This document shows, piece after piece, positions 11,604-20,770 of a stretch of DNA of 51,621 nt (positions are counted from its first letter, which is position 1; every line of letters starts with the position of its first letter). The notes below the pieces were generated by a model. It worked only from the letters and a program-made list of their open reading frames with translations. It ran no database searches and was not told where the DNA came from. Origin of the DNA: Colwellia sp. (GTDB lineage Bacteria > Pseudomonadota > Gammaproteobacteria > Enterobacterales > Alteromonadaceae); the NCBI GenBank assembly GCA_026196955.1, contig JAPHTO010000078.1:1-51621 (forward strand). Reading direction: 5' to 3'. The position numbers and the translations under genes were made by a program.

Positions 11604-13253
11604 ATGGCTGCAAAAGACGTATTATTTGGAAATGACGCCCGCGTAAAAATGCTTAAAGGCGTAAATGTATTAGCCGATGCGGTTAAAGTAACTTTAGGGC
11701 CTAAAGGTCGTAACGTAGTGTTAGATAAATCTTTTGGTGGTCCAACAATCACTAAAGATGGTGTTAGCGTTGCCAAAGAAATCGAATTAGAAGATAAGTT
11801 CGAGAATATGGGCGCACAAATGGTAAAAGAAGTTGCTTCTAAAGCCAATGATGAAGCGGGTGACGGTACAACTACGGCTACTGTTTTAGCACAAGCTATT
11901 GTTAATGAAGGTTTAAAATCAATTGCTGCCGGTATGAATCCAATGGATCTTAAACGTGGTATCGACAAAGCAGTCATTGCTGCCGTTGCTGCGTTAAAAG
12001 AAACCTCTACACCTGTTACAGACAACAAAGCGATTGAGCAAGTAGGTACTATTTCAGCTAACTCTGACGAAACTGTTGGTCAAATCATTGCGACAGCAAT
12101 GGATAAAGTAGGCACTGAAGGTGTTATTACTGTTGAAGAAGGTCAAGCGCTAACAGACGAGCTAGACGTTGTTGAAGGTATGCAATTCGACCGTGGTTAT
12201 TTATCTCCATACTTCATCAACAGCCAAGAAAACGGCACCGTTGAAATGGAAAGCCCGTTCATTCTTTTAGTTGATAAGAAAGTATCTAACATTCGTGAAT
12301 TATTGACCACGCTTGAAGGTGTTGCTAAAGCAGGCAAGCCATTATTAATCATTGCTGAAGATGTTGAAGGTGAAGCACTAGCCACTTTAGTTGTTAACAA
12401 CATGCGCGGTATTGTGAAAGTTGCTGCGGTTAAAGCGCCAGGTTTTGGTGACCGCCGTAAAGCCATGCTACAAGATGTTGCTACACTAACGGCAGGTACT
12501 GTTATTTCTGAAGAAATTGGTATGGAGCTTGAAAAAGCGACGTTAGAAGATTTAGGTCAAGCTAAGCGTGTAATCATCTCTAAAGACAATACCACTATCA
12601 TTGACGGTATTGGTGAAGAAGCTGACATTCAAGCACGTGTTGCGCAAATTCGTGGTCAAATTGAAGAGTCTTCTTCAGATTACGACAAGGAAAAACTACA
12701 AGAGCGTTTAGCTAAGTTAGCTGGCGGTGTTGCGGTTATTAAAGTGGGCGCAGCGACTGAAGTTGAAATGAAAGAGAAAAAAGCGCGTGTTGAAGATGCA
12801 TTACATGCAACTCGCGCAGCCGTTGAAGAAGGTGTTGTTGCTGGTGGCGGTGTTGCCTTAGTTCGCGCTGCAACGGTAATTAAAGACCTTGAAGGTGCTA
12901 ACGAAGATCAAACTCATGGCATTAACGTCGCAATTCGTGCGATGGAAGCGCCACTTCGTCAAATCGTTTCAAACTGTGGTGATGAATCGTCAGTAGTATT
13001 AAATGAAGTGCGTAACGGTGAAGCGAACTACGGCTATAATGCTGGTAACAGTACTTACGGTGACATGATTGAGATGGGTATCTTAGATCCGACTAAAGTT
13101 ACTCGTAGCGCCTTACAATTTGCCGCTTCAGTTGCAGGTTTAATGCTAACTACCGAAGCTATGGTGACTGATGCGCCACAAGAAGCAGCTCCTGCTATGC
13201 CTGATATGGGCGGCATGGGCGGTGGTATGGGTGGCATGCCAGGCATGATGTAA
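11604..13253 (+). CDS. groEL: Chaperonin GroEL
   Basis: 549 aa. The 14-mer ATP-dependent folding chamber that works with GroES. Landmarks are [38 protein letters not shown], the nucleotide loop [12 protein letters not shown], the apical region, [16 protein letters not shown], and the C-terminal tail of repeated GGM units ending GMPGMM. The ribosome-binding site AGGA lies about 9 bases before the ATG. A terminator follows at 13295-13325. The last bases of this gene with its terminator are present a second time at 20.7 kb. Confidence 0.99.
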
Positions 13254-13325
13254 TAGATTTTAAATCTATAACTCTAGCGTTAACCATTAAAACGAAAGCC
13301 TGAATAGTGATATTCAGGCTTTTTT
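13242..13325 (+). repeat. groEL 3' end plus terminator, copy A of a long direct repeat
   Basis: These 84 bases run from the last GroEL codons through the terminator and match 20687-20770 at 78 of 84 positions. This copy belongs to the intact gene; the distant copy is the duplicate. See the finding on the 7.4-kb segment between the copies. Confidence 0.9.
13295..13325 (+). terminator. Intrinsic terminator of groESL
   Basis: A 12-bp perfect stem AAAGCCTGAATA / TATTCAGGCTTT with a GTGA tetraloop, followed by further T residues. It ends the groESL transcript 42 bases after the stop codon. Confidence 0.93.
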
Positions 13326-13651
13326 AATACAGTTATCGCATTTAGAAATCAATGAGGAGCATTCAAATAGATGACCCCGAGTATGGCAGGTAGAAGAATC
13401 ATTTATTATGATACTTAGCACATTCAGAAAAATCATTATATTATAAAGCTAAATAAACCCACTAAAACTTGGTTCATGACAACAATGATAGAGTTAATTT
13501 TGATATTCATGAACAATTAAATCTAGAGTACTTTTTTGTAAGCTATTACATTGACTTTCCTTACTTTTGTAATTGGTAATTCTCCCTGTTTTAAAACTGA
13601 CTACTCATGTAAACTGATGCAATTTAAAAAAGTTGAAAGCATCTTAAAAGG
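13326..13651. other. Intergenic region upstream of the lipoprotein gene
   Basis: About 325 bases of AT-rich sequence without a gene. An 8-bp inverted repeat GTTCATGA (13472-13479) / TCATGAAC (13507-13514) with a 27-base spacer is the only clear structure; it could be a regulator site or cruciform. TTGACT near 13551 may be part of a promoter for the downstream gene, but no convincing -10 partner was fixed. Confidence 0.4.
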
Positions 13652-20550: not shown

Positions 20551-20686
20551 ATGGAGTAAAACCATCTTTCACAGTATTAACTTCCAATAACGACTCCCTT
20601 TGATTGACGAGGGTATAAAGCGGGGTATCCCATTTTGTTAAATCTATTTTTTAACTAATTATCAATAATTTACTTTAGATGTGGGC

Positions 20687-20770
20687 GGCATGATGTAATA
20701 GGTTTTAAATCTATAACTGTAGCACTAACCATTAAAACGAAAGCCTGAATAGCAATATTCAGGCTTTTTT
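20687..20770 (+). repeat. Second copy of the groEL 3' end and terminator, copy B
   Basis: These 84 bases match 13242-13325 at 78 positions. Just upstream, 20678-20686 (GATGTGGGC) still resembles the GroEL GGM tail, so the fragment encodes roughly D-V-G-G-M-M-stop: the tail with its internal repeat units lost. No other part of groEL is present here. It is a long direct repeat of the intact groEL end 7.4 kb to the left. Confidence 0.9.
20740..20770 (+). terminator. Terminator within groEL-tail copy B
   Basis: AAAGCCTGAATA / TATTCAGGCTTT around a GCAA tetraloop with a T-run. Stem identical to the groESL terminator; only the loop differs. It probably now ends transcription from the CadC-like regulator gene 190 bases upstream. 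Confidence 0.85.

Follow-up and report, generated by a model that had tools for sequence, protein, structure and literature searches.

The 3′ end of groEL is an established integration site in staphylococci, where islands use an attachment (att) sequence lying over the last 18 bp of the gene (available text of PMC8125051 and PMC4651549). SeCISE48, SeRIfusB-704, and ScRIfusB, which belong to the PICIs and resistance islands, have a groEL 3′-end attB and att sequences of 21 bp (excerpts of PMC4651549). CIMEs are a second class of relevant element, and their tandem accretion at the 3′ ends of genes is likewise established, e.g., in Streptococcus salivarius (excerpts of PMC5704250 and PMC7563491). 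A search of the open-access literature, covering mostly titles and the openings of abstracts, returned no report of an island site at the groEL 3′ end in gammaproteobacteria; the available text of PMC3285670 mentions groEL for a groEL-intI1 fusion, and that of PMC9769718 for plasmid gene order. While the site is known in staphylococci, a gammaproteobacterial case is apparently unreported.

Here, we describe a probable site of this kind in a Colwellia genome. The window, i.e., the whole stretch of DNA that was analysed, is 51,621 nt long and is part of a 3.97-Mb draft genome (G000); a GroEL of 92% identity in Colwellia chukchiensis points to this genus. Very probably, one family of integrative elements uses the groEL 3′ end to attach to the chromosome in Colwellia and the rest of its order, with positions 13254-20698 of the window being one unit that has no integrase. 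The features of the locus are as follows:

11604..13253, + strand: groEL; its last 17 nt (13237-13253) are in the position of the attachment core, as defined from relatives
13254..13328, + strand: left end A, a short palindrome and a hairpin terminator, now behind groEL
13652..16693, + strand: cargo, 1013-aa lipoprotein-like protein (ORF call; no Pfam family)
16915..17769, − strand: cargo, putative esterase, PF00756 (ORF and Pfam)
18229..20550, + strand: cargo, CadC-like Trans_reg_C/TPR regulator of 773 aa (ORF and Pfam)
20612..20629, + strand: right-end arm motif, agreeing with that of the family at every position and beginning 70 nt before the core
20682..20698, + strand: second attachment core, right end of unit 1, perfect match (core and arm-plus-core patterns)
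20699..20773, + strand: left end B, with a palindrome and a hairpin terminator; a second, older unit probably begins here
21480..24009, + strand: 181-aa ORF and S9-type peptidase, right of copy B (ORF and Pfam)
24178..24238, + strand: third, decayed copy of the left-end terminator, with no recognisable core

As in the staphylococcal groEL PICIs, the att site in the window overlaps the groEL 3′ end, at the same place in the gene. Unlike those islands, which are found in Firmicutes and have their own integrase, the window unit has neither an integrase nor phage-island genes. The original prediction for this locus listed a lipoprotein, an esterase, and a CadC-like regulator, and no integrase or transposase; the gene content is the same here, with the lipoprotein ORF at 1013 aa, and Pfam analysis of the three cargo genes shows neither enzyme. 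A groEL-clade integrase (see below) was also not found in the unit by tblastn. The lipoprotein-like ORF has no PADLOC match, and a search of 295 genomes of the family (E ≤ 1e-15) returned the window as the single match, such that no strain sharing the cargo was found, and hence no empty counterpart of this particular insertion. A plasmid search with segment 1 of the window gave no match.

The attachment core was defined from relatives, as the last 17 nt of groEL, TGGGCGGCATGATGTAA. The genus set comprised 39 genomes; groEL was found in 38, the exception being G051 (76% complete), and junctions were read after orienting groEL and its flanks across the set. Two arrangements emerged: (i) in 18 of the 38 genomes, a native, hairpin-rich sequence directly follows the groEL stop codon (five of these 18 also supplied the native-sequence queries); (ii) in the other 20, sequences of several other kinds follow groEL, and in many of them a second copy of TGGGCGGCATGATGTAA lies downstream. 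A search of groEL 3′ ends of relatives for a nearby repeat was among the checks proposed with the original prediction. In seven genomes, the native sequence resumes within 6 nt of the second core: G018 (core at +3297 from groEL), G009 (+3369), G048 (+1065), G015 (+6008), G054 (+12226, with 2 mismatches), G020 (+4709, with 1 mismatch), and G039, which belongs to another family (+1041). The seven are filled sites, with the empty form seen in the 18. The core pattern, reversed as a control, had 0 hits in the 39 genomes. Among outgroup loci, covered for 1.5 kb or at most ~10 kb downstream, a full copy of the core was found only in G039; more distant second cores, such as that of G032 at 30.5 kb, fall outside this range. 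Five core hits (G013 C60, G013 C81, G005 C175, G007 C4, and G019 C58) lie in unrelated context and were left out as chance or ambiguous matches.

A caution on the filled sites is that, in several relatives, the native sequence occurs behind groEL in more than one copy. G011, G043, and G019 (L203, L188, and L199) have a native, hairpin-rich unit of ~110 nt, and such units occur in two to three tandem copies in several Colwellia. In G008 (L200), groEL has an early stop ~104 nt before its tail, due to a frameshift or a sequencing error, and the native sequence begins 105 nt past this frameshift-like stop. A search of the window for this native sequence found no copy. An mnh-type antiporter operon (24411-31175) separates the array from those genes that in relatives come after groEL; a comparison of this operon with 20 stretches from 18 relatives gave no match.

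Second cores are preceded by a conserved arm. Over the 60 nt ahead of 20 such cores, the information content is 23.6 bits, as compared to at most 8.2 bits in 2000 shuffles, and the clearest conserved part is GGTATAANGTGGGGTATC. A rule of ≤3 mismatches in the core, ≤4 in the arm, and a distance of 56-95 nt between their starts finds the pair at 14 junctions in 13 genus genomes, window included, always on one strand and with starts 67-71 nt apart; the reversed control gave 1 hit in 1.02 Mb, both strands counted. By the same rule, the arm is absent at second cores of G021 (two), G049, G054 (the second), G017 C30, G015, and G039. At left ends, arms with ≤3 mismatches occur at +96 to +130 in G048, G039, G009, G021, and G012. 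The window unit has a perfect far core and a groEL-side core that is off at 3 of 17 positions, with the arm present ~70 nt before the right core. At its left end, the first 450 nt behind the groEL stop codon contain no GGGGTRT arm, and the left-end arm is likewise absent in G054, G018, G022, and G017.

The arm-plus-core signature extends beyond the genus: without mismatch, it occurs in eight of 394 genomes of the order, representing seven of 114 genera, window included (control, 0). The same stretch carries groEL in G110, G141, G117, and G244; in G032, groEL is 30.5 kb away, and in G319 and G147 it is not within the 20 kb examined. We compared the last 70 nt of the window unit's right end with nine others in a fixed register, in which G048 and G022 (71-nt spacing) score low partly because of a 1-base shift. 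The integrase-bearing island of G010, which has the same 70-nt spacing of arm and core, matches at 48 of 70 positions, and at 25 of 26 across the arm part. The remaining scores are 50 for G004 and G017, 43 for G244, 39 for G051, 35 for G054, 27 for G048, 26 for G022, and 22 for G015, whose integrase is of another type. Copy B can be assigned on this basis to the right ends of the groEL-3′-end element family. In G046, an arm and core followed by left-end-like sequence lie on a contig without groEL (C54, L078:1294-1382), and native sequence follows that genome's own groEL; the L078 junction may reflect a relocation or a secondary site.

The repeat that first drew attention to the locus spans the groEL tail and the terminator. 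It was described as 84 bases with 6 substitutions, and a position-by-position comparison of 13242-13325 with 20687-20770 reproduces this, with 78 of 84 positions equal; the repeat stretches to 87 nt at 92% identity (blastn E of 1e-31 inside the window). Copy B begins further left than had been proposed, with the core at 20682. This core (20682-20698, TGGGCGGCATGATGTAA) differs at 3 of 17 positions from the groEL end in the window (TGCCAGGCATGATGTAA), so the left part of B was seemingly not copied from this groEL. Copies A and B diverge by 9% over 75 nt. Copy A diverges from the same terminator in other species to a similar degree, i.e., 8-9% in G054, 10% in G007, 14% in G024, and 20% in G017, which argues that B is not a fresh copy of A and agrees with the initial view that B is old or came from another strain.

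In the alternative offered with the original prediction, homologous recombination brought in a second groEL, of which erosion then left the tail. Copy B does hold the last groEL codons and a groEL-type terminator, but the best match to groEL in the 482 nt before its core has an E value of only 0.096, and the last 70 nt of that DNA are the conserved end of an element. We therefore consider a captured groEL extremely improbable. It is also very improbable that the repeat is a dispersed terminator element, which had been named as one of the findings that would overturn the proposal. The window does contain the hairpin at a third place, and a 111-nt query has some match in 26 of the 39 genomes of the genus, mostly through short hairpin matches. 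Against this, the core combined with the left-end palindrome is found almost only behind groEL or at element junctions, and a genome-wide search with a 30-nt hairpin pattern (≤3 mismatches) found just three places in the own genome, all within the window: copies A and B, and a weaker match at 24209-24238, inside the weaker hairpin copy that spans 24189-24238. Other contigs of this genome have two weaker hairpin matches of ~28-37 nt.

The palindrome and terminator at the left end of the window unit recur behind groEL in G054, G004, G007, G017, G024, and others. In G054, two units with this left end are arranged in series, with native sequence behind the second, and this array serves as the model for the window. 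Since only the core is common to all elements, and the remainder of the repeat is left-end terminator, the two copies probably mark a pair of stacked units by their left ends, and not a single island flanked by long att repeats. Most likely, the newest insertion is next to groEL and a second, older unit lies to the right of copy B; the 181-aa ORF and the S9-type peptidase are possibly cargo of this second unit, and the decayed terminator at 24.2 kb may be a further trace. In G024, the same type of terminator lies between groEL and native-looking genes (judged by eye), and because of this arrangement, one of the two terminator copies may be native in this clade.

Integrases of one clade adjoin groEL in G010, G012, G110, G244, G117, and G032. 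These six tblastn matches begin 217-241 nt past the groEL stop codon and are 57-66% identical to the L219 or G010 query. The G010 and G012 integrases are 62% identical to one another, and the G012 reading frame has an in-frame stop. Beyond these two, no relative above 36% identity was found in the 39 genus genomes at E ≤ 1e-40; in G000, no groEL-clade integrase was found at this threshold, which short fragments would escape (best match, 31%). The integrases of G010, G012, and L219 have the domains PF13356 (Arm-DNA-bind_3), PF22022 (Phage_int_M), and PF00589 (Phage_integrase), the same as those of Arm-DNA-bind_3 integrase islands, which we take to be the P4 type; the window unit differs from such islands in having no integrase. 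With further genes for a TrwC relaxase, a TrwB-type coupling protein, and AbiE, the G010 island resembles a mobilizable element. A different type of tyrosine integrase (DUF6538) lies near the far core of the G015 island (L081), at +6008, and was found in G015 alone among the 39 genomes (E ≤ 1e-40). This island, where genes for a serine resolvase and for a relative of defence proteins, an AAA ATPase, were also identified, has no arm, and was counted as evidence for the core and not for the arm. In G022, ~17 kb behind groEL, a 78-aa fragment (L209:17214-17447) is 85% identical to the L219 integrase; it is the remnant of a decayed groEL-clade integrase.

L219 is a viral contig of 7436 bp with a terminal direct repeat of 103 nt, indicating that it is circular. 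Arms, core, terminator (by eye), arms, and integrase follow one another, which is the order of an attP, and the integrase is 59% identical to that of G010. Other products of L219 include a small terminase and a protein that matches primase/helicase families weakly. The arrangement is the attP expected from integration at groEL, and L219 is a candidate phage satellite integrating there. A second pattern scan of viral contigs returned L219 and nothing else. Relatives of its integrase in viral contigs number 56 loci, including itself, with the others 28-43% identical over the best segment.

A host recombinase is another potential driver: with the groEL end serving as a dif-like site, XerC and XerD could move the units. 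By a hand count, 19 of 28 letters of the junction agree with E. coli dif, and a full integrase of the groEL clade is missing from G000. On the other hand, matches of at least 19/28 occur 16 times among the 1.76 million 28-mers of the loci, and other left ends have no XerD-like arm (by eye). Searches of 8 and 6 genomes found no dif-like site with ≤3 mismatches, and the host dif was thus not located. We regard an Xer-driven system as very unlikely.

The favoured reading, integration of an element family at the groEL 3′ end, would operate as follows. A tyrosine integrase would carry out recombination between the 17-nt groEL end and the core that the element shares with it. The groEL gene would remain whole, its own terminator would be exchanged for the left end of the element, and a second core would mark the far side; the resulting order, as in the window, would be groEL core, terminator, cargo, right-end arm, and core. 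The groEL-clade integrase would arrive on a mobilizable island or a satellite. The next element would enter at the groEL-proximal core, placing the newest first, and units without an integrase could travel in cis, in trans, or along with the region when it is transferred as a whole. The comparison shows the core, the filled and empty sites of relatives, a right-end arm common to the window unit and integrase-bearing islands, and a window unit whose gene set has no integrase; we infer that a groEL-clade integrase acted on this unit, in cis or in trans. That the groEL tail is an attachment site whose recombinase is absent was the other half of the original prediction, and it is supported by the filled and empty sites, the integrases, the attP circle, and the right-end arm. 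Several observations count against the reading: the window unit has no left arm, neither the native sequence nor an empty counterpart of this insertion was found, the native sequence is itself repeated in relatives, one terminator copy may be native (as G024 suggests), the G046 junction lies on a contig without groEL, groEL was not within the 20 kb examined in G319 and G147, a number of second cores have no arm, and the G012 integrase frame is interrupted by a stop.

Because it has no integrase, the window unit is best classed, from its layout, as an att-bounded, non-autonomous, CIME-like element. In common with CIMEs, as characterised in the excerpts cited above, units of the window type are bounded by att sites, devoid of integrase, varied in cargo, and stacked at one gene end, and the three cargo genes of the window unit include no recombination or transfer genes by Pfam. 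Compared to the attL and attR of a CIME, the right end of the window unit is complete, whereas the left side has a core and a terminator but no arm. With respect to the descent of CIMEs from ICEs or IMEs, the relevant likeness is the 48/70-nt match to the IME-like G010 island. There are also differences: the site is groEL in a marine gammaproteobacterium, the units bring a groEL terminator, the window type has an arm on one side, and a groEL-clade integrase (E ≤ 1e-40) is found in the genus only in G010 and G012.

What began as an odd repeat can thereby be described as an insertion hotspot, for which a core and an arm motif have been defined and integrases, a circle, and both empty and filled sites are known. 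Each insertion gives a chaperone gene, one that is essential in model bacteria, a new terminator. The spread of integrase-less islands could be tested here with two short DNA sites and one enzyme, since 12 of 14 core-bounded units in the genus and G039 (cores with ≤3 mismatches) have no integrase in the scans made. The two with an integrase are those of G010 and G015; the count for the other 12 rests on ORF lists, tblastn searches with three integrases, and Pfam analysis of many unit ORFs (with exceptions that include those of G020 and G018). Outside the genus, the units of G117, G244, G110, and G032 have an integrase, and for G141 tblastn found none. Cargo is varied: (i) ParDE alone, in G048 (Pfam) and G039 (similarity); (ii) ParDE with a TOTE primase-helicase, in G009 (Pfam), G018, and G021 (both by similarity); (iii) other genes, i.e., GH92 or amylase with CadC-like regulators in G054, catalase with LysR in G022, and GGDEF/EAL in G049.

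Some of the integrase-less units have probably moved between species, as gauged by sequence identity. The ParDE/TOTE units of G009, G018, and G021 are 92.5-93.8% identical over 3.0-3.3 kb, with groEL at 86.5-87.6%. For a ParDE stretch of G039, identity is 89.5% with G020 over 702 nt and 85.2% with G009 over 647 nt, with groEL at 78.1-78.2%. The G048-G039 ParDE pair is at 77.6%, versus 78.5% for groEL, and for G048 or G020 against G009, G018, and G021, unit identity is at or below that of groEL.

Two views of the integrase-less units follow. It is nearly an even chance that the window island is a dead remnant within the favoured reading, i.e., that it lost its integrase after insertion and is immobile rather than moved in trans. 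Decay does occur at this site, as the G022 integrase fragment and the in-frame stop in G012 attest; the left arm of the window unit is missing, and G000 yielded nothing closer to a groEL-clade integrase than the 31% match. Against a dead remnant, integrase-less units of like content recur, with ParDE/TOTE identity above that of groEL in G009, G018, and G021, and the ParDE stretch of G039 is closer to those of G020 and G009 than groEL is; other pairs do not show this, and none of these comparisons involves the window unit. A tentative view, somewhat short of an even chance as a whole, is that of a cassette system at groEL in Colwellia and relatives, driven in trans. Units that have a core, a groEL terminator, cargo, and an armed right end, but no integrase, would be moved by passing, groEL-specific Arm-DNA-bind_3 integrases; these would ride on mobilizable islands and satellite-like circles, and the stacks would form newest-first and cross species and families. 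For several pairs of units, identity does not exceed that of the groEL genes, which makes such a system slightly less probable.

Draft assemblies break at these repeats, with groEL contigs ending 108 nt (G007), 131 nt (G006), and 145 nt (G004) past the stop codon. As another instance of the window layout, in G049 (L198), a segment of ~7.5 kb with the GGDEF/EAL cargo lies between two copies of core plus terminator, at +1 and +7514, the far core having 2 mismatches.
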